A DNA stretch of 64,000 bases, from assembly GCA_946699065.1 (NCBI GenBank), contig CAMPDV010002002.1, positions 1 to 64,000 on the forward strand. The letters are read 5' to 3'. Under the pieces are notes generated by a model, which was given only the letters and a program-made list of their open reading frames with translations, was not told the origin of the DNA and searched no databases. Of the stretch, positions 1 through 53,660 are shown one piece after another. The translations under genes and the position numbers were made by a program. The stretch is from Loxodes magnus (Eukaryota; Ciliophora; Karyorelictea; Loxodida; Loxodidae). The stretch's first letter is position 1, and the number at the start of each line of letters is the position of its first letter.

Positions 1-3000
1 AATTCTATCTTCTTTTCTTACTTTACTTCTTCACTTTTCTAAATACTTATTACTTCTCAAACCATACTCCTTAAAACTGAAATTCTATCTTCTTTTCTTA
101 CGTTACTTCTTCACTTTTCTAAATACTTAATACTTCTCAAAACATACTCCTTAAAACTGAATTCTATCTTCTTTTCTTACTTTACTTCTTCACTTTTCTA
201 AATACTTATTACTTCTCAAAACCATACTCCTTTAAAACTGAAATTCTATCTTCTTTTCTTACTTTACTTCTTCACTTTTCTAAATACTTAATACTTCTCA
301 AAACATACTCCTTAAAACTGAAATTCTATCTTCTTTTCTTACTTTACTTCTTCACTTTTCTAAATACTTATTACTTCTCAAACCATACTCCTTAAAACTG
401 AAATTCTATCTTCTTTTCTTACGTTACTTCTTCACTTTTCTAAATACTTATTACTTCTCAAAACATACTCCTTAAAACTGAATTTCTATCTTCTTTTCTT
501 ACGTTACTTCTTCACTTTTCTAAATACTTATTACTTCTCAAACATACTCCTTAAAACTGAAATTCTATCTTCTTTTTCTTACTTTACTTCTTCACTTTTC
601 TAAATACTTATTACTTCTCAAAACATACTCCTTAAAACTGAAATTCTATCTTCTTTTCTTACTTTACTTCTTCACTTTTCTAAATACTTATTACTTCTCA
701 AAACATACTCCTTAAAACTGAAATTCTATCTTCTTTTCTTACGTTACTTCTTCACTTTTCTAAATACTTATTACTTCTCAAAACATACTCCTTAAAACTG
801 AAATTCTATCTTCTTTTCTTACTTTACTTCTTCACTTTTCTAAATACTTATTACTTATCAAAACATACTCCTTAAAACTGAATTTCTATCTTCTTTTCTT
901 ACTTTACTTCTTCACTTTTCTAAATACTTATTACTTATCAAAACATACTCCTTAAAACTGAATTTCTATCTTCTTTTCTTACTTTACTTCTTCACTTTTC
1001 TAAATACTTATTACTTCTCAAAACATACTCCTTAAAACTGAAATTCTATCTTCTTTTCTTACGTTACTTCTTCACTTTTCTAAATACTTATTACTTCTCA
1101 AAACATACTCCTTAAAACTGAAATTCTATCTTCTTTTCTTACTTTACTTCTTCACTTTTCTAAATACTTATTACTTCTCAAAACATACTCCTTAAAACTG
1201 AAATTCTATCTTCTTTTCTTACGTTACTTCTTCACTTTTCTAAATACTTATTACTTCTCAAAACATACTCCTTAAAACTGAATTTCTATCTTCTTTTCTT
1301 ACGTTACTTCTTCACTTTTCTAAATACTTATTACTTCTCAAAACATACTCCTTAAAACTGAATTTCTATCTTCTTTTCTTACGTTACTTCTTCACTTTTC
1401 TAAATACTTATTACTTCTCAAAACATACTTCTTAAAACTGAAATTCTATCTTCTTTTCTTACTTTACTTCTTCACTTTTCTAAATACTTATTACTTCTCA
1501 AAACATACTCCTTAAAACTGAATTTCTATCTTCTTTTCTTACGTTACTTCTTCACTTTTCTAAATACTTATTACTTCTCAAAACATACTCCTTAAAACTG
1601 AATTTCTATCTTCTTTTCTTACTTTACTTCTTCACTTTTCTAAATACTTATTACTTCTCAAAACATACTCCTTAAAACTGAATTTCTATCTTCTTTTCTT
1701 ACTTTACTTCTTCACTTTTCTAAATACTTATTACTTCTCAAAACATACTCCTTAAAACTGAATTTCTATCTTCTTTTCTTACGTTACTTCTTCACTTTTC
1801 TAAATACTTATTACTTCTCAAAACATACTCCTTAAAACTGAAATTCTATCTTCTTTTCTTACTTTACTTCTTCACTTTTCTAAATACTTATTACTTCTCA
1901 AAACATACTCCTTAAAACTGAAATTCTATCTTCTTTTCTTACTTTACTTCTTCACTTTTCTAAATACTTATTACTTCTCAAAACATACTCCTTAAAACTG
2001 AAATTCTATCTTCTTTTCTTACGTTACTTCTTCACTTTTCTAAATACTTATTACTTCTCAAAACATACTCCTTAAAACTGAAATTCTATCTTCTTTTCTT
2101 ACTTTACTTCTTCACTTTTCTAAATACTTATTACTTATCAAAACATACTCCTTAAAACTGAATTTCTATCTTCTTTTCTTACTTTACTTCTTCACTTTTC
2201 TAAATACTTATTACTTCTCAAAACATACTCCTTAAAACTGAAATTCTATCTTCTTTTCTTACGTTACTTCTTCACTTTTCTAAATACTTATTACTTCTCA
2301 AAACATACTCCTTAAAACTGAAATTCTATCTTCTTTTCTTACGTTACTTCTTCACTTTTCTAAATACTTATTACTTCTCAAAACATACTCCTTAAAACTG
2401 AAATTCTATCTTCTTTTCTTACTTTACTTCTTCACTTTTCTAAATACTTATTACTTCTCAAAACATACTCCTTAAAACTGAAATTCTATCTTCTTTTCTT
2501 ACGTTACTTCTTCACTTTTCTAAATACTTATTACTTCTCAAAACATACTCCTTAAAACTGAATTTCTATCTTCTTTTCTTACGTTACTTCTTCACTTTTC
2601 TAAATACTTATTACTTCTCAAAACATACTCCTTAAAACTGAATTTCTATCTTCTTTTCTTACTTTACTTCTTCACTTTTCTAAATACTTATTACTTCTCA
2701 AAACATACTTCTTAAAACTGAAATTCTATCTTCTTTTTCTTACTTTACTTCTTCACTTTTCTAAATACTTATTACTTCTCAAAACATACTCCTTAAAACT
2801 GAATTTCTATCTTCTTTTCTTACGTTACTTCTTCACTTTTCTAAATACTTATTACTTCTCAAAACATACTCCTTAAAACTGAATTTCTATCTTCTTTTCT
2901 TACTTTACTTCTTCACTTTTCTAAATACTTATTACTTCTCAAAACATACTCCTTAAAACTGAAATTCTATCTTCTTTTCTTACTTTACTTCTTCACTTTT

Positions 3001-6000
3001 CTAAATACTTATTACTTCTCAAAACATACTCCTTAAAACTGAAATTCTATCTTCTTTTCTTACTTTACTTCTTCACTTTTCTAAATACTTATTACTTCTC
3101 AAAACATACTCCTTAAAACTGAATTTCTATCTTCTTTTCTTACGTTACTTCTTCACTTTTCTAAATACTTATTACTTCTCAAAACATACTCCTTAAAACT
3201 GAAATTCTATCTTCTTTTCTTACTTTACTTCTTCACTTTTCTAAATACTTATTACTTCTCAAAACATACTCCTTAAAACTGAAATTCTATCTTCTTTTCT
3301 TACGTTACTTCTTCACTTTTCTAAATACTTATTACTTCTCAAAACATACTCCTTAAAACTGAAATTCTATCTTCTTTTCTTACTTTACTTCTTCACTTTT
3401 CTAAATACTTATTACTTCTCAAGACATACTTCTTAAAACTGAAATTCTATCTTCTTTTCTTACGTTACTTCTTCACTTTTCTAAATACTTATTACTTCTC
3501 AAAACATACTCCTTAAAACTGAATTTCTATCTTCTTTTCTTACTTTACTTCTTCACTTTTCTAAATACTTAATACTTCTCAAAGCATACTCCTTAAAACT
3601 GAAATTCTATCTTCTTTTCTTACTCTACTTCTTCACTTTTCTAAATACTTATTACTTCTCAAAACATACTCCTTAAAACTGAATTTCTATCTTCTTTTCT
3701 TACTTTACTTCTTCACTTTTCTAAATACTTATTACTTATCAAAACATACTTCTTAAAACTGAAATTCTATCTTCTTTTCTTACTTTACTTCTTCACTTTT
3801 CTAAATACTTATTACTTCTCAAAACATACTCCTTAAAACTGAATTTCTATCTTCTTTTCTTACGTTACTTCTTCACTTTTCTAAATACTTATTACTTCTC
3901 AAAACATACTCCTTAAAACTGAATTTCTATCTTCTTTTCTTACTTTACTTCTTCACTTTTCTAAATACTTATTACTTCTCAAAACATACTCCTTAAAACT
4001 GAATTTCTATCTTCTTTTCTTACTTTACTTCTTCACTTTTCTAAATACTTATTACTTCTCAAAACATACTCCTTAAAACTGAATTTCTATCTTCTTTTCT
4101 TACGTTACTTCTTCACTTTTCTAAATACTTATTACTTCTCAAAACATACTCCTTAAAACTGAAATTCTATCTTCTTTTCTTACGTTACTTCTTCACTTTT
4201 CTAAATACTTATTACTTATCAAAACATACTCCTTAAAACTGAATTTCTATCTTCTTTTCTTAAGTTACTTCTTCACTTTTCTAAATACTTATTACTTCTC
4301 AAAACATACTCCTTAAAACTGAAATTCTATCTTCTTTTCTTAAGTTACTTCTTCACTTTTCTAAATACTTATTACTTCTCAAAACATACTCCTTAAAACT
4401 GAAATTCTATCTTCTTTTCTTACTTTACTTCTTCACTTTTCTAAATACTTATTACTTCTCAAAACATACTCCTTAAAACTGAAATTCTATCTTCTTTTCT
4501 TACGTTACTTCTTCACTTTTCTAAATACTAACTTCTTTTATAAGTATACTCCTTAAAACTGAAATTCTAGTTTCTTTTCTTACTCTACTTCTTCACTTTT
4601 CTAAATACTTATTACTTCTCAAAACATACTCCTTAAAACTGAAATTCTATCTTCTTTTCTTACTTTACTTCTTCACTTTCTAAATACTTATTACTTCTCA
4701 AAACATACTCCTTAAAACTGAAATTCTATCTTCTTTTCTTACTTTACTTCTTCACTTTTCTAAATACTTATTACTTCTCAAAACATACTCCTTAAAACTG
4801 AAATTCTATCTTCTTTTCTTACGTTACTTCTTCACTTTTCTAAATACTTATTACTTCTCAAAACATACTCCTTAAAACTGAAATTCTATCTTCTTTTCTT
4901 AAGTTACTTCTTCACTTTTCTAAATACTTAATACTTCTCAAAACAATCTCCTTAAAACTGAATTTCTATCTTCTTTTCTTACGTTACTTCTTCACTTTTC
5001 TAAATACTTATTACTTCTCAAAACATACTCCTTAAAAATGAAATTCTATCTTCTTTTCTTACTTTACTTCTTCACTTTTCTAAATACTTATTACTTCTCA
5101 AAACAATCTCCTTAAAACTGAATTTCTATCTTCTTTTCTTACGTTACTTCTTCACTTTTCTAAATACTTATTACTTCTCAAAACATACTCCTTAAAACTG
5201 AATTTCTATCTTCTTTTCTTACTTTACTTCTTCACTTTTCTAAATACTTATTACTTCTCAAAACATACTCCTTAAAAATGAAATTCTATCTTCTTTTCTT
5301 ACTTTACTTCTTCACTTTTCTAAATACTTAATACTTCTCAAAACAATCTCCTTAAAACTGAATTTCTATCTTCTTTTCTTACGTTACTTCTTCACTTTTC
5401 TAAATACTTAATACTTCTCAAGACATACTCCTTAAAACTGAATTTCTATCTTCTTTTCTTACGTTACTTCTTCACTTTTCTAAATACTTATTACTTCTCA
5501 AAACATACTCCTTAAAACTGAATTTCTATCTTCTTTTCTTACGTTACTTCTTCACTTTTCTAAATACTTAATACTTCTCAAAACAATCTCCTTAAAACTG
5601 AATTTCTATCTTCTTTTCTTACGTTACTTCTTCACTTTTCTAAATACTTATTAATTCTCAAAACATACTCCTTAAAACTGAAATTCTATCTTCTTTTCTT
5701 ACTTTACTTCTTCACTTTTCTAAATACTTATTACTTCTCAAAACATACTCCTTAAAACTGAATTTCTATCTTCTTTTCTTACGTTACTTCTTCACTTTTC
5801 TAAATACTTATTACTTCTCAAAACATACTCCTTAAAACTGAAATTCTATCTTCTTTTCTTACTTTACTTCTTCACTTTTCTAAATACTTATTACTTCTCA
5901 AAACATACTCCTTAAAACTGAATTTCTATCTTCTTTTCTTACTTTACTTCTTCACTTTTCTAAATACTTATTACTTCTCAAAACATACTCCTTAAAACTG

Positions 6001-9000
6001 AAATTCTATCTTCTTTTCTTACTTTACTTCTTCACTTTTCTAAATACTTATTACTTCTCAAAACATACTCCTTAAAACTGAAATTCTATCTTCTTTTCTT
6101 ACTTTACTTCTTCACTTTTCTAAATACTTATTACTTCTCAAAACATACTCCTTAAAACTGAAATTCTATCTTCTTTTCTTACTTTACTTCTTCACTTTTC
6201 TAAATACTTATTACTTCTCAAAACATACTCCTTAAAACTGAAATTCTATCTTCTTTTCTTACGTTACTTCTTCACTTTTCTAAATACTTATTACTTCTCA
6301 AAACATACTCCTTAAAACTGAAATTCTATCTTCTTTTCTTAAGTTACTTCTTCACTTTTCTAAATACTTAATACTTCTCAAAACAATCTCCTTAAAACTG
6401 AATTTCTATCTTCTTTTCTTACGTTACTTCTTCACTTTTCTAAATACTTATTACTTCTCAAGACATACTTCTTAAAACTGAAATTCTATCTTCTTTTCTT
6501 ACTTTACTTCTTCACTTTTCTAAATACTTATTAATTCTCAAAACATACTCCTTAAAACTGAATTTCTATCTTCTTTTCTTACTTTACTTCTTCACTTTTC
6601 TAAATACTTATTACTTCTCAAAACATACTCCTTAAAACTGAATTTCTATCTTCTTTTCTTACGTTACTTCTTCACTTTTCTAAATACTTATTACTTCTCA
6701 AAACATACTCCTTAAAACTGAAATTCTATCTTCTTTTCTTACTTTACTTCTTCACTTTTCTAAATACTTATTACTTCTCAAAACATACTCCTTAAAACTG
6801 AATTTCTATCTTCTTTTCTTACTTTACTTCTTCACTTTTCTAAATACTTATTACTTCTCAAAACATACTCCTTAAAACTGAAATTCTATCTTCTTTTCTT
6901 ACTTTACTTCTTCACTTTTCTAAATACTTATTACTTCTCAAAACATACTCCTTAAAACTGAATTTCTATCTTCTTTTCTTACTTTACTTCTTCACTTTTC
7001 TAAATACTTATTACTTCTCAAGACATACTCCTTAAAACTGAATTTCTATCTTCTTTTCTTACTTTACTTCTTCACTTTTCTAAATACTTATTACTTCTCA
7101 AGACATACTCCTTAAAACTGAATTCTATCTTCTTTTCTTACGTTACTTCTTCACTTTTCTAAATACTTATTACTTCTCAAAACATACTCCTTAAAACTGA
7201 ATTTCTATCTTCTTTTCTTACGTTACTTCTTCACTTTTCTAAATACTTAATACTTCTTCTGAATTTCTATCTTCTTTTCTTACGTTACTTCTTCACTTTT
7301 CTACTTATTACTTTCAAAAATACTCCTGAAATTCTATCTTCTTTTCTTACTTTACTTCTTCACTTTTCTAAATACTTATTAATTCTCAAAACATACTCCT
7401 TAAAACTTTCTATCTTCTTTTCTTACGTTACTTCTTCACTTTTCTAAATACTTATTAATTCTCAAAACATACTTAAAACTGAAATTCTAAACTTCTTCAC
7501 TTTTCATACTTATTCTTCTCAAAACATAAAAACTGAAATTCTATCTTTTCTTACTCTACTTCTTCACTTTTCTAAATACTTATTACTTCTCAAAACATAC
7601 TCCTTAAAACTGAATTTCTATCTTCTTTTCTTACGTTACTTCTTCACTTTTCTAAATACTTATTACTTCTCAAAACATACTCCTTAAAACTGAATTTCTA
7701 TCTTCTTTTCTTACTTTACTTCTTCACTTTTCTAAATACTTATTACTTCTCAAAACATACTCCTTAAAACTGAATTTCTATCTTCTTTTCTTACTTTACT
7801 TCTTCACTTTTCTAAATACTTATTACTTCTCAAAACATACTCCTTAAAACTGAATTTCTATCTTCTTTTCTTACTTTACTTCTTCACTTTTCTAAATACT
7901 TATTACTTCTCAAAACATACTCCTTAAAACTGAATTTCTATCTTCTTTTCTTACGTTACTTCTTCACTTTTCTAAATACTTATTACTTCTCAAAACATAC
8001 TCCTTAAAACTGAAATTCTATCTTCTTTTCTTACTTTACTTCTTCACTTTTCTAAATACTTATTACTTCTCAAAACATACTCCTTAAAACTGAATTTCTA
8101 TCTTCTTTTCTTACTTTACTTCTTCACTTTTCTAAATACTTATTACTTCTCAAAACATACTCCTTAAAACTGAAATTCTATCTTCTTTTCTTACTTTACT
8201 TCTTCACTTTTCTAAATACTTATTACTTCTCAAAACATACTCCTTAAAACTGAATTTCTATCTTCTTTTCTTACGTTACTTCTTCACTTTTCTAAATACT
8301 TATTACTTCTCAAAACATACTCCTTAAAACTGAAATTCTATCTTCTTTTCTTACTTTACTTCTTCACTTTTCTAAATACTTATTACTTCTCAAAACATAC
8401 TCCTTAAAACTGAAATTCTATCTTCTTTTCTTACGTTACTTCTTCACTTTTCTAAATACTTATTACTTCTCAAAACATACTCCTTAAAACTGAAATTCTA
8501 TCTTCTTTTCTTACGTTACTTCTTCACTTTTCTAAATACTTATTACTTCTCAAAACATACTCCTTAAAACTGAAATTCTATCTTCTTTTCTTACGTTACT
8601 TCTTCACTTTTCTAAATACTTATTACTTCTCAAAACATACTCCTTAAAACTGAATTTCTATCTTCTTTTCTTACTTTACTTCTTCACTTTTCTAAATACT
8701 TAATACTTCTCAAAGCATACTCCTTAAAACTGAAATTCTATCTTCTTTTCTTACTCTACTTCTTCACTTTTCTAAATACTTATTACTTCTCAAAGCATAC
8801 TACTTAAAACTGAAATTCTATCTTCTTTTCTTACTCTACTTCTTCACTTTTCTAAATACTTATTACTTATCAAAACATACTCCTTAAAACTGAATTTCTA
8901 TCTTCTTTTCTTACTTTACTTCTTCACTTTTCTAAATACTTATTACTTCTCAAAACATACTCCTTAAAACTGAATTTCTATCTTCTTTTCTTACGTTACT

Positions 9001-12000
9001 TCTTCACTTTTCTAAATACTTATTACTTCTCAAAACATACTCCTTAAAACTGAATTTCTAACGTTACTTCTTATCTTACTTTTCTTACTTAAAAATGAAA
9101 TTCTATCTTCTTTTCTTACTTTACTTCTTCACTTTTCTAAATACTTATTACTTCTCAAAACATACTCCTTAAAACTGAAATTCTATCTTCTTTTCTTACG
9201 TTACTTCTTCACTTTTCTAAATACTTATTACTTCTCAAAACATACTCCTTAAAACTGAAATTCTATCTTCTTTTCTTGACTTCTTCACTTTTCTAAATAC
9301 TTATTACTTTCATACTTTAAAACTCTACTTTTACTTCTTCACTTTTCTAAATACTTAACTTCTACATACTCCTTCTGAATTTCTATCTTCTTTTCTTACG
9401 TTACTTCTTCACTTTTCTAAATACTTATTACTTCTCAAAACATACTCCTTAAAACTGAATTTCTATCTTCTTTTCTTAACTTCTTCACTTTTCTTCTTAT
9501 TACTTCTCAAAACATACTTTAAAACTGAATTTCTATCTTCTTTTCTTACTACTTCTTCACTTTTCTAAATACTTATTACTTCTCAAAACATACTCCTTAA
9601 AACTGAATTTCTATCTTCTTTTCTTACGTTACTTCTTCACTTTTCTAAATACTTATTACTTCTCAAAACATACTCTTAAAAATGAAATTCTATCTTCTTT
9701 TCTTACTTTACTTCTTCACTTTTCTAAATACTTATTACTTCTCAAAACATACTCCTTAAAACTGAAATTCTATCTTCTTTTCTTACTTTACTTCTTCACT
9801 TTTCTAAATACTTATTACTTCTCAAAACATACTCCTTAAAACTGAATTTCTATCTTCTTTTCTTACGTTACTTCTTCACTTTTCTAAATACTTATTACTT
9901 CTCAAAACATACTCCTTAAAACTGAAATTCTATCTTCTTTTCTTACTTTACTTCTTCACTTTTCTAAATACTTATTACTTCTCAAAACATACTCCTTAAA
10001 ACTGAATTTCTATCTTCTTTTCTTACGTTACTTCTTCACTTTTCTAAATACTTATTACTTCTCAAAACATACTCCTTAAAACTGAAATTCTATCTTCTTT
10101 TCTTACTTTACTTCTTCACTTTTCTAAATACTTATTACTTCTCAAGACATACTTCTTAAAACTGAAATTCTATCTTCTTTTCTTACTTTACTTCTTCACT
10201 TTTCTAAATACTTATTACTTCTCAAAACATACTCCTTAAAACTGAATTTCTATCTTCTTTTCTTACTTTACTTCTTCACTTTTCTAAATACTTAATACTT
10301 CTCAAAGCATACTCCTTAAAACTGAAATTCTATCTTCTTTTCTTACTCTACTTCTTCACTTTTCTAAATACTTATTACTTCTCAAAGCATACTACTTAAA
10401 ACTGAAATTCTATCTTCTTTTCTTACTCTACTTCTTCACTTTTCTAAATACTTATTACTTCTCAAAACATACTCCTTAAAACTGAATTTCTATCTTCTTT
10501 TCTTACGTTACTTCTTCACTTTTCTAAATACTTATTACTTCTCAAAACATACTCCTTAAAACTGAATTTCTATCTTCTTTTCTTACTTTACTTCTTCACT
10601 TTTCTAAATACTTATTACTTCTCAAAACATACTCCTTAAAACTGAAATTCTATCTTCTTTTCTTACTTTACTTCTTCACTTTTCTAAATACTTATTACTT
10701 CTCAAAACATACTCCTTAAAACTGAAATTCTATCTTCTTTTCTTACTTTACTTCTTCACTTTTCTAAATACTTATTACTTCTCAAAACATACTCCTTAAA
10801 ACTGAAATTCTATCTTCTTTTCTTACTCTACTTCTTCACTTTTCTAAATACTTATTACTTCTCAAAACATACTCCTTAAAACTGAATTTCTATCTTCTTT
10901 TCTTACGTTACTTCTTCACTTTTCTAAATACTTATTACTTCTCAAAACATACTCCTTAAAACTGAAATTCTATCTTCTTTTCTTACTTTACTTCTTCACT
11001 TTTCTAAATACTTATTACTTCTCAAAACATACTCCTTAAAACTGAAATTCTATCTTCTTTTCTTACGTTACTTCTTCACTTTTCTAAATACTTATTACTT
11101 CTCAAAACATACTCCTTAAAACTGAAATTCTATCTTCTTTTCTTACTTTACTTCTTCACTTTTCTAAATACTTATTACTTCTCAAAACATACTCCTTAAA
11201 ACTGAATTTCTATCTTCTTTTCTTACGTTACTTCTTCACTTTTCTAAATACTTATTACTTCTCAAAACATACTCCTTAAAACTGAAATTCTATCTTCTTT
11301 TCTTACGTTACTTCTTCACTTTTCTAAATACTTATTACTTCTCAAAACATACTCCTTAAAACTGAATTTCTATCTTCTTTTCTTACTTTACTTCTTCACT
11401 TTTCTAAATACTTATTACTTCTCAAAACATACTCCTTAAAACTGAAATTCTATCTTCTTTTCTTACTTTACTTCTTCACTTTTCTAAATACTTATTACTT
11501 CTCAAAGCATACTCCTTAAAACTGAAATTCTATCTTCTTTTCTTACTTTACTTCTTCACTTTTCTAAATACTTATTACTTCTCAAAACATACTCCTTAAA
11601 ACTGAAATTCTATCTTCTTTTCTTACTTTACTTCTTCACTTTTCTAAATACTTATTACTTCTCAAAACATACTCCTTAAAACTGAAATTCTATCTTCTTT
11701 TCTTACGTTACTTCTTCACTTTTCTAAATACTTATTACTTCTCAAAACATACTCCTTAAAACTGAAATTCTATCTTCTTTTCTTAAGTTACTTCTTCACT
11801 TTTCTAAATACTTATTACTTCTCAAGACATACTCCTTAAAACTGAAATTCTATCTTCTTTTCTTACGTTACTTCTTCACTTTTCTAAATACTTATTACTT
11901 CTCAAAACATACTCCTTAAAACTGAAATTCTATCTTCTTTTCTTACGTTACTTCTTCACTTTTCTAAATACTTATTACTTCTCAAAACATACTCCTTAAA

Positions 12001-15000
12001 ACTGAATTTCTATCTTCTTTTCTTACTCTACTTCTTCACTTTTCTAAATACTTATTACTTCTCAAAACATACTCCTTAAAACTGAATTTCTATCTTCTTT
12101 TCTTACTTTACTTCTTCACTTTTCTAAATACTTATTACTTATCAAAACATACTCCTTAAAACTGAATTTCTATCTTCTTTTCTTACTTTACTTTTTCACT
12201 TTTCTAAATACTTATTACTTCTCAAAACATACTCCTTAAAACTGAAATTCTATCTTCTTTTCTTACGTTACTTCTTCACTTTTCTAAATACTTATTACTT
12301 CTCAAAACATACTCCTTAAAACTGAATTTCTATCTTCTTTTCTTACTTTACTTCTTCACTTTTCTAAATACTTATTACTTCTCAAAACATACTCCTTAAA
12401 ACTGAAATTCTATCTTCTTTTCTTACTTTACTTCTTCACTTTTCTAAATACTTATTACTTCTCAAACCATACTCCTTAAAACTGAAATTCTATCTTCTTT
12501 TCTTACGTTACTTCTTCACTTTTCTAAATACTTAATACTTCTCAAAACATACTCCTTAAAACTGAATTTCTATCTTCTTTTCTTACGTTACTTCTTCACT
12601 TTTCTAAATACTTATTACTTCTCAAGACATACTCCTTAAAACTGAATTTCTATCTTCTTTTCTTACTTTACTTCTTCACTTTTCTAAATACTTAATACTT
12701 CTCAAAACAATCTCCTTAAAACTGAATTTCTATCTTCTTTTCTTACTTTACTTCTTCACTTTTCTAAATACTTATTACTTCTCAAAACATACTCCTTAAA
12801 ACTGAATTTCTATCTTCTTTTCTTACTTTACTTCTTCACTTTTCTAAATACTTATTACTTCTCAAAACATACTCCTTAAAACTGAAATTCTATCTTCTTT
12901 TCTTACGTTACTTCTTCACTTTTCTAAATACTTATTACTTCTCAAAGCATACACCTTAAAACTGAATTTCTATCTTCTTTTCTTACGTTACTTCTTCACT
13001 TTTCTAAATACTTATTACTTCTCAAAACATACTCCTTAAAACTGAATTTCTATCTTCTTTTCTTACTTTACTTCTTCACTTTTCTAAATACTTAATACTT
13101 CTCAAAACATACTCCTTAAAACTGAAATTCTATCTTCTTTTCTTACTTTACTTCTTCACTTTTCTAAATACTTATTACTTCTCAAGACATACTCCTTAAA
13201 ACTGAATTTCTATCTTCTTTTCTTACTTTACTTCTTCACTTTTCTAAATACTTATTACTTCTCAAAACATACTCCTTAAAACTGAAATTCTATCTTCTTT
13301 TCTTACGTTACTTCTTCACTTTTCTAAATACTTATTACTTCTCAAGACATACTCCTTAAAACTGAATTTCTATCTTCTTTTCTTACTTTACTTCTTCACT
13401 TTTCTAAATACTTAATACTTCTCAAAACATACTCCTTAAAACTGAAATTCTATCTTCTTTTCTTACTTTACTTCTTCACTTTTCTAAATACTTATTACTT
13501 CTCAAAACATACTCCTTAAAACTGAAATTCTATCTTCTTTTCTTACTTTACTTCTTCACTTTTCTAAATACTTAATACTTCTCAAAACATACTCCTTAAA
13601 ACTGAATTTCTATCTTCTTTTCTTACTTTACTTCTTCACTTTTCTAAATACTTATTACTTCTCAAGACATACTCCTTAAAACTGAAATTCTATCTTCTTT
13701 TCTTACTTTACTTCTTCACTTTTCTAAATACTTATTACTTCTCAAAACATACTCCTTAAAACTGAAATTCTATCTTCTTTTCTTAAGTTACTTCTTCACT
13801 TTTCTAAATACTTATTACTTCTCAAAACATACTCCTTAAAACTGAAATTCTATCTTCTTTTCTTAAGTTACTTCTTCACTTTTCTAAATACTTATTACTT
13901 CTCAAAACATACTCCTTAAAACTGAAATTCTATCTTCTTTTCTTAAGTTACTTCTTCACTTTTCTAAATACTTATTACTTCTCAAAACATACTCCTTAAA
14001 ACTGAATTTCTATCTTCTTTTCTTACGTTACTTCTTCACTTTTCTAAATACTTATTACTTCTCAAAACATACTCCTTAAAACTGAATTTCTATCTTCTTT
14101 TCTTACGTTACTTCTTCACTTTTCTAAATACTTATTACTTCTCAAAACATACTCCTTAAAACTGAAATTCTATCTTCTTTTCTTACGTTACTTCTTCACT
14201 TTTCTAAATACTTATTACTTCTCAAAACATACTCCTTAAAACTGAAATTCTATCTTCTTTTCTTAAGTTACTTCTTCACTTTTCTAAATACTTATTACTT
14301 CTCAAAACATACTCCTTAAAACTGAAATTCTATCTTCTTTTCTTACTTTACTTCTTCACTTTTCTAAATACTTATTACTTCTCAAAACATACTCCTTAAA
14401 ACTGAATTTCTATCTTCTTTTCTTACTTTACTTCTTCACTTTTCTAAATACTTATTACTTCTCAAAACATACTCCTTAAAACTGAAATTCTATCTTCTTT
14501 TCTTACGTTACTTCTTCACTTTTCTAAATACTTATTACTTCTCAAAACATACTCCTTAAAACTGAATTTCTATCTTCTTTTCTTACGTTACTTCTTCACT
14601 TTTCTAAATACTTATTACTTCTCAAAACATACTCCTTAAAACTGAAATTCTATCTTCTTTTCTTACGTTACTTCTTCACTTTTCTAAATACTTATTACTT
14701 CTCAAAACATACTCCTTAAAACTGAATTTCTATCTTCTTTTCTTACTTTACTTCTTCACTTTTCTAAATACTTATTACTTCTCAAAACATACTCCTTAAA
14801 ACTGAAATTCTATCTTCTTTTCTTACGTTACTTCTTCACTTTTCTAAATACTTATTACTTCTCAAAACATACTCCTTAAAACTGAATTTCTATCTTCTTT
14901 TCTTACGTTACTTCTTCACTTTTCTAAATACTTATTACTTCTCAAGACATACTCCTTAAAACTGAAATTCTATCTTCTTTTCTTACTTTACTTCTTCACT

Positions 15001-15860
15001 TTTCTAAATACTTATTACTTCTCAAAACATACTCCTTAAAACTGAAATTCTATCTTCTTTTCTTACTTTACTTCTTCACTTTTCTAAATACTTATTACTT
15101 CTCAAAACATACTCCTTAAAACTGAATTTCTATCTTCTTTTCTTACGTTACTTCTTCACTTTTCTAAATACTTATTACTTCTCAAGACATACTCCTTAAA
15201 ACTGAAATTCTATCTTCTTTTCTTACGTTACTTCTTCACTTTTCTAAATACTTATTACTTCTCAAAACATACTCCTTAAAACTGAAATTCTATCTTCTTT
15301 TCTTACGTTACTTCTTCACTTTTCTAAATACTTATTACTTCTCAAAACATACTCCTTAAAATTGAATTTCTATCTTCTTTTCTTACGTTACTTCTTCACT
15401 TTTCTAAATACTTATTACTTCTCAAAGCATACTCACTTAAAACTGTTACTTCTTCACTTTTCTAAATACTTATTACTTCTCAAAACATACTCCTTAAAAC
15501 TGAATTTCTATCTTCTTTTCTTACTTTACTTCTTCACTTTTCTAAATACTTATTACTTCTCAAAACATACTCCTTAAAACTGAAATTCTATCTTACTTTA
15601 CTTCTTCACTTTTCTTACTTATTACTTCTCACATACTTTAAAACTGAATTTCTATCTTCTTTTCTTACTTTACTTCTTCACTTTTCTAAATACTTATTAC
15701 TTCTCAAGACATACTCCTTAAAAATTTCTATCTTCTTTTCTTACGTTACTTCTTCACTTTTCTAAATACTTAATACTTCTCAAAACATACTCACTTAAAA
15801 CTGAAATTCTATCTTCTTTTCTTACGTTACTTCTTCACTTTTCAAAACTTAAAACTTCTT
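1..15860. repeat. 80-bp tandem satellite array
   Basis: About 198 head-to-tail copies of an 80-bp unit fill this stretch. Each unit contains TTCTTCACTTTTCTAAATAC and CATACTCCTTAAAACTG. The plus strand is strongly pyrimidine-rich, with only one to three G per unit. Variants sit at a few fixed positions: AAATTC/AATTTC; ACTTTA, ACGTTA, AAGTTA or ACTCTA; TTACTTCTCA or TTACTTATCA; AAAACATAC, AAGACATAC or AAACAATC. Blocks of variants recur: the CAAAGCATAC...CTCTAC...CAAAGCATACTAC run near 8700-8820 recurs near 10300-10440, about 20 units away. Units are deleted or shortened at roughly 7245-7560, 9055-9560 and 15430-15860. The left edge lies outside the window. Eighty is not a multiple of three and I see no codon pattern, so it is not coding. 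A centromeric, subtelomeric or germline-limited role is possible but not shown. Confidence 0.97.
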
Positions 15861-16240
15861 TTACTCTTAAAAATTATACTCAATAAATCTTAAATTCTAT
15901 CTTCTTTTCTTACTTTACTTCCTCACTTTCATAGATACTTATAACTTCTTTTTATCTCAAAGTTTTATTAACTCTATAAGCTGAAATTCTTTCTATTTTT
16001 ACTTCTTCACTTATGTAATATCTCTGATAATCTTATTTTTGCAACACTTCAGTTTTTTTTCTTTATTTTTCTAATTTCACTATGAATATCATTTTATTAT
16101 TATACTTATTTTTTATATAACTTTCATATTTTAACAAAAATTTACTTTTAATTCTTTGTTGCTTTTATGTATTTTGCAAAAAATTAGTTATTTTACTTTG
16201 ACTATTATTTATTTTTAAGCTTAATTAGTTTCGGACTGCA
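15861..16240. other. Decayed satellite edge and AT-rich spacer
   Basis: Two or three heavily mutated units with the same TCTTCTTTTCTTACTTTACTT core run to about 16015. After that the sequence is T-rich with no recognisable gene. This is the right-hand boundary of the array, where homogenisation appears to have stopped. Confidence 0.7.
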
Positions 16241-17981: not shown

Positions 17982-19283
17982 TCAGAAAATTACACAGCCA
18001 GATGTAACATATCTTTTCTTATCCTCTTCACCCATGATGGAGCTGTCCATTGTACATTTCTGAAACTTTAATCCATAGTCAGCATATACTTTGTTCCAGT
18101 CAGTCTAAATAATTAATATTAAATTTGAACTTACCTGTTATTAGTTAGTTGTATCTACTTGATTCAATAACCTTCCTAAGTTCCATCTTCGAATGTTGTA
18201 ATCTTCTGATTCGCTAAGCCATCTATCTCCATTACTTGATACCAACCAATTGTTGTCCTTAGATAATGATAAACTACCCACAGTGTCCGTATGACCCAAT
18301 AGTACACATTCACACTATCCATTATTGATATTTCATATTCTTATTGTCTTGTCATAAGATCCAGATAAGATATACTTGTTGTTACTCGAGAATATTACCG
18401 AATAGACATAAGATGTGTGTCCCGATAAGACCATTGTACAAGACAGAGTTCGAGAGTTCCATAAACGAATAGTTTTGTCATCCGATCCAGATATGATGTA
18501 AGTGGAATCACTGGATATAGCCACAGCATATACATAACTAGTGTGACCACTCATGGTCTTACAGGTACCTGTCTTGACGTCCCATAGTCTCACCGTCTTA
18601 TCTCCACTTCCCGATACGATGAACTCTGAATCACTGGATATAGCCACAGATCATACATAATTTGTGTGACCACTCATGGTCTTACAGGTACCTGTCTTGA
18701 CGTCCCATAGTCTCACCGTCTTATCTCAACTTCCCGATACGATGAACTCTGAATCACTGGATATAGCCACAGATCATACAGAACTAGTGTGACCACTCAT
18801 GGTCTTACAGGTACCTGTCTTGAAGTCCCATAGTCTCACCGTATTAACATCACTTCCCGATACGATGAACTCTGAATCACTGGATATAGCCACAGCATTT
18901 ACATAACTAGTGTGACCACTCATGGTCTTACAGGTACCTGTGGCTATGTTATAGAGTCTTAGAGTTTTGTCATCAGATCCAGAAACTATTAAGTCACTGT
19001 TTGATGAGATGGCCACGGATGTGACTGAGTTGGAGTGTCCAGTGTAAATGTGAGGGTGTTCAGTAGAGATTGAGGTAAGGTTAGCGTTGGAGAGGTCGCA
19101 GTTGATAAATTTGGAGTTGCGAAGGTTAGTTAATGAGAGATTAGAGTTGGAGAAATTACAATTGGTGAAGGTGGTGTCAGAGAGATCAGAGTTAGTAAAG
19201 TCAAGGTTTTGCAAATCTTAATTAGTGAATTAGAAGTTCATGTAATTCAATAAAGTAAAGGAATTGGCTGCAGCTATTTGCAT
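17982..19283 (-). CDS. Pentapeptide-repeat / seven-bladed WD40 protein
   Basis: A protein of about 423 residues, read with TAA/TAG=Gln and TGA=Trp. Residues ~15-70 are pentapeptide-like (DLQNLDFTNSDLSDTTFTN...). Seven WD40 repeats follow to about residue 360, enough for a closed beta-propeller. Typical unit: GHTSYV.AVAISSDSEFIVSG..DKTVRLWD.KTGTCKTM. WD40 propellers are protein-interaction scaffolds; the partner is unknown. Four internal TGA codons fall at sensible Trp positions: HTSSV-W-S, GS-W-DKT, HTNYV-W-S and, most telling, RI-W-N at 18333-18335. The frame ends at TGA 17982-17984. The ATG at 19281-19283 is the first in frame before the pentapeptide block. A 30-nt GT-AG intron near the 3' end is likely. 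Blades 2-4 are almost identical at DNA level, so they were recently duplicated or converted. It looks intact. Confidence 0.9.
18105..18134 (-). other. Likely 30-nt intron in the WD40 gene
   Basis: On the minus strand this stretch starts CAG|GTAAGT, is AT-only in its interior and ends TTTAG. It lies between blade 7 plus a Gln run and a more polar C-terminal tail (TDWNKVYADYGLKF...). Its length is a multiple of three, so the frame is open with or without it; only a transcript would decide. Confidence 0.6.
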
Positions 19284-19383
19284 TTTTGGTTGGCTTTTGG
19301 AAATACTTAAGATCTACAACATATATTACTAATTCTTCTCAGATTTTATTTGAATTAAATCATAAAGAATTAATGATTTTTTG

Positions 19384-20395
19384 CAGATGTTGATTTTATT
19401 CAAAGGATTGCTCAAAATGGTATTCATGTCGATTTACTTGTTTTGGAATTCGTTGAGTATATTCTAAAGGTTTTGAATACTTTCAATTTTGAACTCTTAA
19501 TTTGGCTACTTTACGATTTAAGCTGGTTATAATTATTCTGAAATTTTTGGCTGGATTTATTATGTGACTTGTTTTCCTTAGATTTATTTTTTTATTTCTT
19601 CTTTGGGTTGTCTTACTTCTTAAGCCTGACTTTATTTTAGTTGGTTTTATTGATCTAAAAACTTTTTTATTACAACTGTGAAATCTTACATGTTGGCTCT
19701 TTATTCAGGATTCATACTCATGATCTCCTAAAAGGCCTTGAATGAAATTTCTGAAATTGATTTGTAGTTTTGACTTGCGTTTTAGTAACTCAAAGATTTT
19801 ACCCTAGTCATTTCAATTTACATGCTTTCAAATTCTTTTACTACCTCATCCAAAGTATTTAAATTACTATTGTATTCCTAACTTGTTACCATGTTTAAAG
19901 TCTTTATATGCTGATATTTCTCACATAGAGTATTTATCTTTCTTAAGACTTTCTCTATTTCATTTGCGATCTTCTAACTCTCATCAATTTCACTCTAGCA
20001 TAATATTTAAGTAACTTATTTTACTATTTTACTAAAGATCTATTGGAAATCTACACAAGTTTTCTTGATATTGATGATATTGGTCTTTTAGATGTTGGCT
20101 TGTCCCGATAAGTCTTAAATCAGTTGGATCAGATTGGCCTAATGCTCAAACTTATTTAGCTATTACTTAAAGTATTTTTTTATGTCGAAACTTTTTACAT
20201 TCTGTTCCTCTATACTTACTTTCTTATTGTGAATCTGACATTTAATTGTATCAGTTTCTTAAACCAGTTTTTAAAGACATTTAGTGCAACGAACACATCC
20301 ACATTATAATTCTTTTGGCTATCTTTGATTTTAGTCGAAAACTTTTTTACATTTTTAACAGACGGTTAAATCCATTACTTATAATTAACTTAAAA
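19384..20395 (+). pseudogene. Possible decayed coding region, unrecognised
   Basis: Stretches read like protein on the plus strand: ADVDFIQRIAQNGIHVDLL near 19385, DLLEIYTSFLDIDDIGLLDV at 20037-20100 and VGSDWPNAQTYLAITQSIF from 20123. The second and third lie in different frames, with a shift near 20110 that no obvious intron explains. I recognise no domain. The opposite strand and plain AT-rich spacer remain possible. Base composition collapses to A/T beyond 20395. Confidence 0.3.
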
Positions 20396-33300: not shown

Positions 33301-33895
33301 TTTAAGTATTATTATTTATTTGCGATGAATTATTACCATAGTTAGGAATTAAGGCATTAAAGTCGCCACAAAGATAGTAAGGTTTTGGTCACTATTATTT
33401 ATGATATTATTAAGGTATTCATATGCAATGTCCTTATAAATATTTGACTTTTCATTTGTAGGCAAATAACATGATGCTATTATTAAATTTCCAACTCTCC
33501 CGCTTATAAAATGTCCAGGAAGATTTGAGAAATCTAATTCATTTTAACAAGAATCAAGTTACTTTTTTACTAATAGACATACTCCACCTGCACGTTTATT
33601 TGCGTTTTAGTAATAGGTACTTCATTGTTCTATAGCAATTGGGCAATATGTTTATTACGTTCATGTTTCGTTTATTGAAAAAATATCAAATTCATTATCA
33701 AGGATGAATTATTATAATGCCGTTTGTTTACTAGCTATTGAGCTTATATTTACATGTCCTATTTTTATTTTCTTAGATTCTTGCGCTCCACCAGGGAGCC
33801 CTCCCTAATATATGCAAATATATTTAGTCCCTTATGAATCTCTTTAAATATGTGCCAGTTCTTTTTTATACTCAGGGTGCTGGTGGAAATATTAG
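30400..33895 (-). mobile_element. Non-LTR retrotransposon ORF2 (APE endonuclease + reverse transcriptase), frameshifted
   Basis: About 1150 residues in several frames. The endonuclease (33.8-33.0 kb) shows KIGHVNISSI, FDIFSINETWT (Trp encoded by TGA), SGRVGNLIIASCYLPTN and CGDFNALIPNYG. The reverse transcriptase (32.4-31.4 kb) shows LPIFKKGSKNN, QFGFIRKRSTTQQ, LIDVEKMFDS, GLLQGSSHAPLLAILYYD, FADEL, WVKLKINVVKCEAIEF and NYLGYQLE. A C-terminal CLCG...H zinc segment lies near 30.77 kb, then a Lys/Glu-rich tail (IFKLQDELLEEFLEEE). The reading frame shifts at least in the endonuclease before CGDFN and just after KCEAIEF. The third catalytic Asp of the polymerase box is Glu (FADE). The copy is dead but not ancient. 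The clade cannot be fixed by eye; the APE domain and ORF1 type fit L1/Tx1-like or similar groups. Confidence 0.88.
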
Positions 33896-35470: not shown

Positions 35471-35713
35471 AGTATGAATATTAAAACTTGAAAAGCATAA
35501 AAATTGTTTCTTTCATGTCTTTGTATTCTCCTAGATCCTACAATATGAGTTGATTGTTATGGTAGTTAGGAGGCTAAATTTTTGTCCAAGGAAATTTTTC
35601 TTTTTAACTCTTTATCTTCAAAATTTATTTGATAACTATGCTTACTTCTAGTAGATAAATTTTCCTTAATTAAGAATTATTATTTAAGGGTATAATTTTA
35701 TTTATAAATAATA

Positions 35714-37033
35714 ATGGAAATGTCCGAGGTTGCAAAATGTCAATCTTGCAAAGGAGATTTCGACGGATAGGATAAGATACCTATAATTCTTCCATGCTAA
35801 CATAATACTTGCTATACTTGTGCAATTGATCAACATTAGAAAAATAAAAGTATCAGATGTTTCTAGTAAACTTGCTAATAGGTTTTCAAAATTCATCCGT
35901 TAAATTTTTAGAAAGATGACTTATTACTAAAGTCTATTGAAAAAAAGATGAGACTAGAAAGCATAGCTCTGCTAGAAAGTTCATAAGCTAGAATTAAATC
36001 AGCTTAAACATAGTTGGTTGAATAATAGACTAATACTATATAATAGCTAACCTAGTATCTTATCGGTTTCATATTCAAGAAAAGTATTGCATTATAAAAA
36101 GAGAATAAATAGATGAATAAGGTTATCAAGCAATAATTAACTTATCTCAAGTTCTTCTAAAACTAGATGAAGGAGCAAGAAAATCAATAATAATTCTAGT
36201 AGTAGAACTTCAACTATCAGAAGATGGAATAGAGAACCTAAAATTTAGTAGCAGATTCATATGAAGTCTTATAGTAAAACTCTTAGGTTTCTGCAAAAGT
36301 ATTTGAAGAGTTAGCCAGCTTTTAAAATAACTTAAATTAGGCGACTTAAACTAGCAACTAGTCTTAGTTCTAGATATATTAGTTAAATTTATAAATATAA
36401 GGAATATAATAGGAGAATATTAACTTGTAAGACAATATAAACTTCTTAACGAAAGAGGTATAATCACTTACTAAATAATTGAATGAGAGTCAAAGTAAAT
36501 TGGGTATTTAGTAGTGATAGTAATAAGAAGATTTCAAGTAATACTAATAATATTAATGCTACCTACAAAATATAGCTTAGTCTAATTAATCCTAAGAATA
36601 ATTATAGTAGTTTTAATAACCTTATCTTATCTAAAAATAATAATACTCACAGCAGTAAAAATAGAATCAAGATCCATAAATCACAATAGTATCTCCAAAT
36701 AATAAAACAGTCTAAATATAAATTAGATAGGATATGACTATCGAATAAATAAAATAAAATATTAACGAAAAAACGAATTTAAGCTCATTGAGATTGGATC
36801 TTCTAAAGAATAATGAAATTTTAAATGATTAATATACTATATCTGAGTATAGAATAGTGAAAGATGAGAGAATCTAAATGAAATTGAGTAAGCTTTAATT
36901 AAAAAAATAATTCAGAAAGTAAATAAATATAAAGACAATAAAAATCAGGTAAATTTATGCTTAATTTGCAAATGATGAATGTAAGGTGATATTTGATGTG
37001 AAAACGAAGGATGTAAGGTTATATTTAATGTGA
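35714..37033 (+). CDS. RING-finger / coiled-coil / ubiquitin-like domain protein
   Basis: The ATG at 35714 opens about 439 residues. Zinc-binding residues C9, C12, C28, H30, C33, C36, C49 and C54 form a C3HC4 RING, with a slightly wide last pair (C-x4-C). RING domains usually recruit E2 enzymes for ubiquitin transfer. Residues ~60-320 form a very Gln-rich helical region; most Gln are TAA/TAG, with one TGA read as Trp (GIQQWQQQ). Residues ~322-394 form a ubiquitin-like domain: ITIVSPNNKTVQIQI, MTIEQIKQNI, LRLDLLKNNEILNDQYTISE, RIVKDERIQMKLSKL. No C-terminal Gly-Gly follows, so it is a fixed UBL rather than a processed modifier. The first in-frame TGA that could end it is at 37031-37033, already inside the minisatellite, so the true end may be earlier. 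Probably a ubiquitin ligase. Confidence 0.82.
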
Positions 37034-47553: not shown

Positions 47554-48589
47554 TTATAAATAAATTTGATTATAGACGCGTAGCACCTCATTGGCGCGCA
47601 GCTCTTTAAAAAAAAATGTTTCATACTGACAAGAATGTTTCTTACTGATAAAATTATCAGATACTGATAAACCTTGTTCAATACTGGTATAATTATTCAG
47701 TACTGATAAAAATGTTCAATACTGATATAATTTTGGAATACTCGTAATCTTTAATATTTGATGGAGGTCCAAGGACATGGCAGGATTGTGTTTCATTGCA
47801 TCACCAAAGCAGAGGAAGACATGTGTCAATTATGAGTACTTAAATTTCCCACCTCTGATGAAGCTCGCAATATTATTTCTTTTTCGTTCCAGTATTAAAT
47901 CTGAACTAAGCCAGTGCCGAAGGTCTAAGAATCTTATGTCTCGAGGCCAAACCAAAGGAGAGGAAGACATAAAGTCGATTATGGGTACTTAACTTCCCCA
48001 ACCTCTGATGAAGATGACCTTGTTGTTCACCTTCGAACAACTATGGCGGTTTTAAAAAATATATATAATAAAATTTTATCCAGCGTGCCCTTAAAAAAAA
48101 TGTAATTTTGAATAATAAAAGTTAAAACATAAATTAATACACTCCTATATGAACTATAAAAAAATATGTAAAAAAAGGAATTTGAAAAATATAATAATTA
48201 TAAATTTTCTTAGCTATATGATTTATTTAATGCTTTTGATTAATTCTATTTAAAATTTTTCCAATATGTCAAATTTTTTTAATCTGAAGTTTATAATGCA
48301 TTATTAATATTAATTATTAAGTATAACTCTCTCGGACAAGCAACTATCTCCTACCCGCTCATAAGGAAATTTCAGTTAGATGGTATTTGCAAAATGGAAT
48401 AATGACATATATGAGCAATTTTTAAGCAAGGCTCTCTTGAATTAAAACCAATACTACTAGAATAAAATTTAAATGCTTTTCTTATTAAAGTTATCTTCTT
48501 TAAATTCATTTTTCTCTTCTAAATTCACACCTTTTCGCAAACTAAAAAAAAACAGATATTTACTCGAGCAAGTGGATACCTAAATTTTC

Positions 48590-48760: not shown

Positions 48761-50171
48761 TGTAGATAAAACTAGTAATTTACTATCTTGAAGTAAAATT
48801 AGCTTGATAAAAAGGAAATAGAAAGTTAGGATGATTAACAAATAAATTGATATTATAAGATCTTATTAAAAAAGAATTAGAAGAAAATTTAGAATTCTAA
48901 ACAAGAATAATCAGAATTTAATCGGACTCAGGAGCTTTTATTATAATTTTTCAAAAAGCTTAAATAATGACGTTCCTATTAAAGAAAGAATACAGCTAAT
49001 TTATCATTATTAGTTTCAATCTTGTTAAAATTATGTAAATTTAACTGAAAAGTTCACTTATATCTTGTTATAATAGGAAAATTCAAACCATATTATCATA
49101 AGGTTAAAAGAAGTTAAATAATTATAACAGCAAGAAACCATAAGTCTATCAAAATTTATAAAATAGGATCGATTAAAACTTAAACAATAAAATATAGTCG
49201 AAATATAAAAGTTAATAAAGCTAATAAAAAGAATATGAAAGAAAGTTACTTTAAAAATAGAAAAAATAAAATAACCTTTCACAAAATAAATTTTTAGTTT
49301 AAAGCCAATATATAAATAATTTGTCTCAAATAATATTATCTTTTGTATTAATAGTTACTCTTTTTATTTTATAAAAACTAATTTTCAAGTTAGCGCACAG
49401 AAAAAACAATTGCGAATTGATTTGGATTTTTATCTATTATAAAATATTATCTAATATCTCTTTTTTTAACTTTTTATATGAATATAATAAATGAATCCTT
49501 ATTTTTACATTTTTATTCCTTTTTACTATCGTCAAACTTTATAGTTATTTAATATAAGTTAAATTTAAAAAATAAACTTAAAAGCATTCCATTTGTTTTA
49601 GTTTTATTCAATTTATTTTAAAGATTATTGTATACTACTAAATATAAAAAAATATGGAAACTTAGCATGAAGTTTAAAATACAATAAAATAAGTAGATTT
49701 ATTATATAATTATTATATATATTTTTTTTAAAACCGTCATAGTTGTTCGAAGGTGAACAACAAGGTCGTCTTCATCAGAGGTTGGGGAAGTTAAATACCC
49801 ATAATCGACTTTATGTCTTCCTCTCCTTTGGTTTGGCCTCGAGACATAAGATTCTTAGATCTTCGCCACTGGCTTAGTTTAGATTTAATACTGGAACGAA
49901 AAAGAAATAATATTGCGAGCTTCATCAGAGGTGGGAAATTTAAGTACTCATAATTGACACATGTCGTCCTCTGCTTTGGCGATGTAATGAAACACAATCC
50001 TGCCATGTCCTTGGACCTCCAGCAAGTATTAAAGATTACGAGTTTCTTAAATTATATCAGTATTGAACATTTTTATCAGTACTGAATAATTATACCAGTA
50101 TTGAACAAGGTTTATCAGTATCTGATAATTTTATCAGTAAGAAACATTCTTGTCAGTATGAAACATCTTTT

Positions 50172-50987: not shown

Positions 50988-53660
50988 AAAATTACAATTC
51001 ACTTTCGTTTTTTCTTTTACTTTCTTCAAAAAATCTCTTTGTCTTTTCATTTTATATAGCTATTTTTATACATTTTTCTATTCTTAATTTATGTATTTTT
51101 TCTCTTATTAATTTATATATTCCTAAATAGTTAAATTTAGCAATATTAAATCAAGCATTTCAACTTTCTGATATTCTCGCACTCTTCATTGTTAAATAGG
51201 ACTAGTGATTTTATTTTAAAGTAGCTTTGATTTTTAATTTAATAGATTTAATCAGTACTATTTATGCCATTTTGATTTGCTTTTTGTATTCTCCAAAATT
51301 GTTCTAGATCTTACAATTCCCATTCAACTTACTCAAAGAATAAAAAGCTTTAAATAGGAACTTATTTCTTTACTTATTGCCATTTTTACTCTAACTTCTT
51401 CCTTTTTGCTTCTTTTATTCCCTTTATTATTCCTTTATCATTGCTATTATACCAAATAGCATTCCTACATATGTTATTATAATTGATATCACTATAATTG
51501 CTTTACCTATTTACTGTGAACTTTAGGGACTAACTGAAGAAATTTCTCGGTTTTATTACTAATCATCTAGTGAGCAAAAATTAAAGTTGAAAGAAATAAA
51601 GTTATTAACAAAAACTCTTATGAAGTCTGTACTAGATTAAGTAATTTGGATTCGAAAGGCTTACTCTTTATGATATACAGAAGCATACCTAAACTTAATG
51701 GTATACTTAGGATAATTTGAGCTAAAGCTGTTTAGTATAAGCTAATTAAAGCAATAGCCAAAAGTAATCTTCATAGTAAAAATAAGGAATAACAAATTAA
51801 AGCTGCTTTCTCATGTTTTAGTTCATCAAACAATTAAAAATACTTTTAAGTATATTTATCAAGAACTTCCTTATAATCAGAAGCTTGAGGATTTATTTTG
51901 CTTTTTAAGTAAACAATACTTTATTACAAAGTAAAAACGAACTATCAATGCAACTTCATTGATCTATATAAAAAAATTACCAAACAGAAATAGGCAGCAA
52001 ATGTGATTACTATGTATCATTAATTTTCAAAGTTGGAGTAAACTATTTGAAGAATAGAGGAATATGATATTTGAATTTAATAGCAAGTGAAGAGATAAGG
52101 GAAGTCGATAATGTAAGTATTTCTATCTAATGTTAGAAAATTATTTAGCGAAGAAATATCTTTACACTAGATTTAGTAATGTCTAAAAATAAAATGACAA
52201 GAGGAGAATAAAGTTTATTATTAAATTTTATAAAAATGCGTAGCTTTTGTATCCTAGAATTTATCATTTGATATCTTTAACGATTTGTTTGGTATAGTTA
52301 GAGTCTAAATTTTAATTTAACTTTTTTATTAAGTTTTGACTTTGTTGATAGTATAAAGCTGATAAAATTTCTGGTTTATTAACTTGAATATAAGCATTTG
52401 CTTAAAAATTTTCTATTATAAACATATATTAAAATAAATAGCCAGAAGAAATACTTCCAGGCATAACTAAGCTGACTGAAGATATTACTACTAAACCAAT
52501 AAATCCTGAATTTTGTAATTATTAACTTTATTAATTAGCTTCATTTTACTAGACTGATATATTAAAACTATCTATTGAAATTTCTTATGAGTTTCCCTTT
52601 TAATCTTCTTTATTTTCTTTAGTTTTTTCATCATAAATCTCTTAATTTTGATCTTCTTAATATTCTTTTTCTTGTTATATTTCGTTTTTCTCACAAGTAT
52701 GTTTATTGAATCTTCATAAGTTTAAAAGCATAAATTGCATTTACTTCCATCTTCTGAACATTCTTTGCAATTTTCTATTACTTTATTACATGGATTGCAT
52801 ATTCCGGTATTTAATTGTCTTACTTTGTTGCTCGACATTACTCTACACAAGTATTTTATGATAACTTCTAATTCACATTTTAAGCATTTATCTTGGTCAC
52901 TAAAATTACAGTTCTAATGAATTTCTTAGCAAAACTTACAAATTTTTATCTTTGTCTAAATAAAATCCACTTTAACATTCATAGCACTGCTTTAAATTCT
53001 GATGACATTTATAGCAATACTCTATCTCTTTATTGCAAGGTTTACAAACTTAATCTCATTTGTAATTTTATCCCTTTTCATCACATTTTACTGGATATTT
53101 GTTTTATGAAAGATATAAATTTTTATAATATAAGAAAACATTTTAATCTTAACTAATAGCACAATCTTAAACCACTTCTTCACAAGTAGTATATTTATTA
53201 TTTTAAAGTTTTTTAGGTGAAATGTATTTTTAGTATGCTTGTCCATCTTAGAAACAAAACTACCAATCTTTAATACTCACAAAACATAACTCAAAATAAT
53301 GAAAACTGTTTATAAAATAGTCAACTTCCCAAAGCAAGCATTAAGTTCCATCTTCAATACATTCGATACAATTACTTAATGCAGTACTATATAATTTGCA
53401 AATTCTATCACCTTCTTTATCTTATTCTGTAAAAGGACATTTAGAAAGACTTTAGTTTTAAGATAGCTTTAAAGGATTATTACACTAAATGCATGTTTAA
53501 TTGTCTGAGCAAAGACACAATTTTTATCTATAGCGTTGCACGGTCAGCATGAACCAACTTTCTCAAGTACACAATATAGATCACATATTGAGCATCCACT
53601 TCCGTCTTCATAGCACTCAATATAATTGCTTAATATTTCTCACATCCTAAAGACAAAATG
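50988..53660 (-). pseudogene. 5'-truncated, frameshifted copy of the LamG/furin-repeat membrane protein
   Basis: On the minus strand this follows the gene at 58.5-62.8 kb from about its position 59740 to its stop codon. The order is Cys-rich repeats (IECYEDGSGCSICD, CSDNQTCIQCNNPLKL-like, CDEKGQNYKWDQVCKPC, CYKCHQNLKQCYECQSGFYL), an acidic linker, membrane segments and a Lys-rich tail. DNA matches are long, for example CATTCCTACATATGTTATTA near 51460 and CATGTTTTAGTTCATCAAAC near 51820. The signal peptide, LamG domain and first Cys repeats are absent. Reading frames break at several places, including one near 53510 and one after FYLDKDKN. The stop region has TTG TAA in place of TAG TGA. I take it as a dead duplicate. 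Its inverted orientation relative to the intact gene suggests duplication with inversion or ectopic insertion. Confidence 0.85.

Follow-up and report, generated by a model that had tools for sequence, protein, structure and literature searches.

A WD40 gene of Loxodes magnus read with the karyorelict nuclear code, in which UGA is both tryptophan and stop

The window analysed in this study, the whole stretch of 64,000 nucleotides at bases 1-64000 of contig C2002, belongs to the Loxodes magnus assembly of 705,730,643 bases and 7,843 contigs that formed the scope of our genome-wide tests; the published macronuclear assembly of this species is given as 706 Mbp, with abundant tandem repeats and LINE-like elements, in the parts of the report drawn on here (PMC11441545). 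Positions 1-15950 of the window are occupied by an 80-bp satellite repeat, present in about 193 copies with 95% matches and a GC skew near -0.85. Further along lie an inverted pair of segments (47716-48300, minus strand, and 49590-50085, plus strand), which look near-identical by eye in translation and are flanked by copies of a 38-bp tandem repeat, as well as two genes for Cys-rich proteins on opposite strands (52000-53560, minus, and 59298-61200, plus), similar to each other by eye and both without Pfam matches.

The gene of main interest is found on the minus strand at 17982..20375, where in-frame reading and Pfam define 797 codons, beginning with the ATG at 20375, and a TGA stop. The preliminary description had chosen this frame correctly, but took in only its C-terminal part, the full frame running from 20375 to 17982. 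The product is organized as a Cys-rich N-terminus, a Gln-rich middle, a pentapeptide-like block and seven WD40 stretches (Pfam WD40, 1e-72), the RING-like character of the N-terminus and the pentapeptide-like block being recognized by eye. The frame holds 4 internal TGA codons, together with 31 TAA, 14 TAG, 16 CAA, 7 CAG and 8 TGG, and two of the TAA codons, at 19232-19230 and 19220-19218 (minus strand), are read as Gln where the pentapeptide-like block begins; each of the other five frames across this stretch contains 17 to 32 TGA codons. Under table 11, no closed ORF of at least 150 aa exists in the whole 64,000-nt window. The scarcity of TGA relative to the other frames, the lack of table-11 ORFs, the WD40 match and a drop in GC past the last codon indicate that the WD40 frame is not a product of chance. 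A 30-nt candidate intron bounded by GTAAGT and TTAG is present at 18105..18134 on the same strand. The gene stays in frame with or without its removal, and 30 nt exceeds the 25 bp that, in the portions of the Loxodes report used here, 93% of reported introns do not surpass (PMC11441545).

The inferred stop of the WD40 gene is the TGA at 17982..17984 (minus strand), assigned from composition and from the distance to the next in-frame TGA, which lies 82 codons downstream. Upstream of it, the closest sense TGA is 117 codons away, the closest TAA 52 and the closest TAG 41. GC content falls from 33.7% in the coding sequence to 15% across the 60 nt past this TGA, values to be compared with the 33.5% (coding) and 18.6% (3' UTR) reported for Loxodes in the sections consulted (PMC11441545); the decrease past stops is seen here in DNA only. 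It had been proposed that both homology and composition stop at this TGA. Composition bears this out, but homology does not, as the last of the Pfam matches listed for the protein reaches only to residue 749, about 50 codons short of this TGA.

The internal TGAs had all been described as lying at Trp-compatible positions. Their existence was confirmed, and their positions were evaluated by aligning the translation to PDB chains with TGA masked as X. The codon at 18333..18335 (IRI[TGA]NINNG; all four are on the minus strand) is the only one that matches the Trp of the WD motif, as judged from the WDR5 alignment. The TGA at 18774..18776, in V[TGA]SVAISS, and its near-copy at 18651..18653, recognized by repeat comparison, share a column at which 2ymu carries Trp in some of its blades but R or N in further blades, other matches having different residues again. 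As these two sit in near-identical tandem repeats, the gene offers about three independent cases rather than four. The fourth TGA (18726..18728, SGS[TGA]DKTVRLWD) falls in a variable column with Asp, Tyr or Arg among the matches shown. A clearly Trp column is thus absent at three of the four sites, and the WD40 gene, with one diagnostic Trp site and two near-copies, fits the code but by itself argues only weakly for TGA being read as Trp.

The same pattern had been claimed for three further genes of the window, and the TGAs were indeed found in two of them. The RING-UBL gene (35705..37033, plus strand), which shows a ubiquitin-family match and a weak RING match below cut-off, contains by frame reading an internal TGA at 36515-36517 and a final one at 37031-37033; the internal codon lies in a Gln-rich linker and is uninformative about Trp. 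The LINE copy, which looks degenerate, carries its TGA in INET[TGA]T (33661..33663, minus strand), within a stretch that weakly matches Exo_endo_phos (E 0.0077, below cut-off). The LamG case could not be confirmed, with no Pfam match to this domain in the pieces scanned, which represent part of the window. Long WD40-repeat arrays with a 126-bp unit are found elsewhere in the genome, on contigs C1503, C119, C9, C620, C272 and C1832. In two 4-kb array pieces, only three of the 42 columns contain TGA. In the arrays of C1503 and C620 TGA is confined to variable columns, so these arrays are neutral on Trp identity; of the 84 cells in their two invariant Trp columns, 83 are TGG and the remaining one is Cys.

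A stronger test of the meaning of TGA comes from the dyneins. The search for Dynein_C domains gave 46 match rows, and the 20 regions fetched cover 30 of these rows and 20 genes, the remaining 16 rows lying outside the sample. The domains were aligned with TGA masked, and their columns were compared to the five PDB dyneins with alignments shown. Six columns, which are Trp in all five PDB dyneins (in four of five for column 241), account for 30 of the 38 sense TGAs: TGG, TGA and other codons are found 13, 7 and 0 times at column 116, 16, 3 and 1 times at column 130, 17, 3 and 0 times at column 144, 9, 9 and 2 times at column 154, 16, 4 and 0 times at column 218, and 4, 4 and 12 times at column 241. 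The other 8 TGAs fall outside these columns, at variable or unaligned places. Less than one TGA would be expected by chance in six of 307 columns (binomial p 2e-44), although the genes are paralogues, and p values therefore overstate their independence. On the level of sequence, this distribution argues decisively that UGA encodes Trp inside genes of the Loxodes magnus genome.

The reading of TAA and TAG as Gln, also put forward in the preliminary description, is confirmed by the same alignments and by eRF1. At Dynein_C column 67 the 20 genes have 13 TAA, 3 TAG and 4 CAA, and at column 14 they have 6 TAA, 6 TAG, 3 CAA, 2 CAG and 3 other codons; Gln codons, in this reading, fill 37 of the 40 cells, and 28 of these 37 are TAA or TAG. 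Two eRF1 genes, of 436 codons each, were found about 35 kb apart on contig C196 (18213-21581 and 53113-56481; L002 and L003), and both encode the glutamine of the GGQ motif by TAA. Both copies also read RAQNIKS and FLCENTF, the human counterparts being TASNIKS and YLCDNKF. A further eRF1 candidate (L001) was rejected, as by eye it reads like Pelota/Dom34.

These results are best explained, with a probability of about 0.97, by the karyorelict nuclear code already in print (NCBI table 27), which reads the WD40 gene as an ordinary gene whose last UGA would be a stop near the poly(A). In table 27, UAA and UAG stand for Gln. The idea that the WD40 gene is instead a decayed pseudogene, its internal TGA, TAA and TAG codons being true nonsense mutations, might draw on the numerous WD40 arrays of the genome and on the degenerate appearance of the LINE within the window. 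We consider it very improbable, as the coding frame is poor in TGA (4, compared with 17-32 in the other frames) and the WD40 domains are intact; as a general account, decay is contradicted by eRF1 and the dyneins, which use the same codons at conserved Gln and Trp columns.

Under the karyorelict code, UGA should also be the only codon at gene ends, and these were defined by homology. In each of the 20 dynein genes the homologous C-terminus is followed by TGA (12 were read in a single frame and 8 in the frame of the last stretch); in the 12 single-frame genes the stop was called as the first in-frame TGA past codon 285, so that the identification of the true end rests on the agreement with PDB chain ends. 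In L067, for instance, this rule gives 307 residues, and the five PDB chains also end two residues past the residue aligned to 305. With the two eRF1 genes, which likewise end in TGA, the codon closes 22 of 22 homology-defined ends, none having TAA or TAG, in what is a small sample of the genome. The claim that TGA serves as both Trp and stop in this genome is thereby upheld. The counts also bear on a code of the Condylostoma type, in which UAA and UAG are stops as well. Such a code has in common with the present data that UGA means Trp, that UAR means Gln and that sense use of stop codons is lost near transcript ends, but we find it hardly credible here: none of the 22 ends is TAA or TAG, and in 4 of the 12 single-frame dyneins a sense TAG stands 4 codons ahead of the stop. 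The Condylostoma magnum code is table 28.

The karyorelict code leaves the question of how one codon is given two meanings, and in this regard the position within the gene is informative. Among the 12 single-frame dyneins, 7 have sense TGA, the last one 84-191 codons upstream of the stop, and the closest TAA lies at 54 codons; TAG is found as near as the 4 codons already mentioned. At the conserved dynein Trp located 13-20 codons upstream of the stop (14 codons in L067), all 20 genes have TGG, as against 26 TGAs in 97 cells of five other dynein Trp columns (Fisher p = 0.006, computed on paralogues). Sense UGA is scarce close to stops and UAG is tolerated, which is the published pattern, observed here within one invariant Trp column; for Loxodes, a depletion over the roughly 20 codons before the stop has been described for UGA and UAA in coding use, but not for UAG, in the sections of the report used here (PMC11441545). 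The exception to the depletion of UAA is a TAA 14 codons ahead of the stop in both eRF1 copies.

An alternative is that local sequence context, rather than position, separates stop from sense UGA. The base following 23 stops (20 dynein, 2 eRF1 and the WD40 gene) is T in 13, G in 7, A in 3 and C in none, and after the 14 sense TGAs tabulated (the other 28 lie outside the table) it is A in 5, T in 4, C in 4 and G in 1, a difference that speaks for such an explanation. Among the sense TGAs, however, 5 of the 14 are followed by T or G as well, and in Condylostoma, whose stops show a weak flanking-base bias with U preferred, the bias was rejected as a sufficient signal in the portions of Swart 2016 consulted (PMC4967479). 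We therefore regard context as an improbable explanation. On position, our data agree with Swart 2016.

The karyorelict code would be implemented by tRNAs, and the genes found are consistent with this. A pattern made of a UUA or CUA anticodon loop and a T-loop gave 249 matches in the genome and none in the reversed control, and the four loci checked with ARAGORN were all tRNAs (tta at three loci and cta at one). These tRNAs are the predicted readers of UAA and UAG as Gln. They lie partly in tandem arrays, for example at C214:232620-237622 and C130:557669-566519 (L087-L093). Searching for tRNA-Gln with a sequence query gave no match and is uninformative. From a general tRNA family search, 63 of 42,786 candidates were scored, and the 30 loci scanned contained tRNA-Lys and some tRNA-Ala; the tRNA-Lys genes, too, are tandemly repeated in this genome.

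For UGA, the preliminary description had pointed to a Trp tRNA with a UCA anticodon. No such form of the Trp stem-loop of Loxodes was found: a UCA anticodon within the short-stem arm described below has 0 matches genome-wide, the query being that same arm, so that a divergent UCA tRNA would lie outside its reach. Instead, a short-stem tRNA-Trp(CCA) is present. The tRNA-Trp genes, located by DNA query, are of two kinds, both with the CCA anticodon, which differ in having a 5-bp or a 4-bp anticodon stem. The normal 5-bp kind is represented by two exact arms on contig C110 and a variant (L038), a further relative (L037) giving no tRNA by ARAGORN. In the other kind U27 and C43 are unpaired, leaving a stem of 4 bp, and the loci drawn adopt a tRNA structure. 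The exact 23-base short-stem arm occurs in 72 copies, all on contig C148, and 66 of the 72 belong to one tandem array with a 241-bp unit (C148:157308-173043; L041-L064 and L094). A short-stem tRNA-Trp in Loxodes has already been reported (Swart 2023, as cited in the parts consulted of PMC13092985 and PMC12005148), and we found no mention of the array, or of how many copies it has, in the portions of the literature on Loxodes tRNAs that we drew on. According to the sources consulted in part, the nonstop code of Blastocrithidia also relies on a short-stem tRNA-Trp(CCA) for reading UGA as Trp, but there UAR is Glu and UAA is the stop, in contrast to the Gln and UGA of Loxodes. A reading of UGA like that of Blastocrithidia would also involve an eRF1 substitution that weakens UGA recognition; the motifs of both Loxodes eRF1 copies are those given above.

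The excess of 72 short-stem arms over two exact normal-stem arms and few variants raises the possibility that gene dosage contributes to the choice between sense and stop. This excess of gene copies might make Trp the default reading of UGA, with termination only where the transcript end aids eRF1. We hold this to be a doubtful proposal, since tRNA arrays are common in the Loxodes magnus genome and the assembled copy number may be wrong.

All together, our results place the WD40 gene within a code whose main mechanism is already in print for Loxodes magnus. In the parts of the Loxodes report used here, table 27 is the code of the organism, in which UGA serves as the sole stop and means Trp where it is far from the poly(A) tail (PMC11441545). 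UAA and UAG would be read as Gln by the tRNAs with UUA and CUA anticodons, and the last UGA, lying near a short 3' UTR and the poly(A) tail, would act as a stop because the release factor eRF1 wins there. The codon meanings, the TGA at 22 gene ends, the scarcity of sense TGA near stops and the tRNA genes come from the present analysis; that the balance is tipped by the transcript end and a poly(A)-bound protein is taken from the literature. The passages of Swart 2016 consulted propose translation as the default at ambiguous codons, with proximity to the transcript end letting eRF1 win, an effect probably mediated by poly(A)-binding protein (PMC4967479). How the cell tells the two kinds of TGA apart had been presented as an open question, but a published and partly tested answer exists (Swart 2016, Seah 2024, both drawn on in part). 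The karyorelict and Condylostoma codes had been named as analogues. The former, known from Loxodes and Parduczia, is the code itself: UAA and UAG are Gln, UGA is both Trp and the single stop codon, the stops examined have no sense UGA in their vicinity, UAG is tolerated there and coding composition is alike, so that nothing sets this genome apart, the TAA before the eRF1 stops being an exception to a statistical depletion. The code of Condylostoma magnum resembles it in a double meaning settled by position, according to the parts of the literature consulted, but differs in its UAA and UAG stops, absent from the gene ends defined here. With the exception of the LamG case, the preliminary reading is supported. 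The window and the genome provide an independent confirmation, from DNA alone, of the published code, and illustrate that in ambiguous stop/sense codes the position in the message can decide termination.
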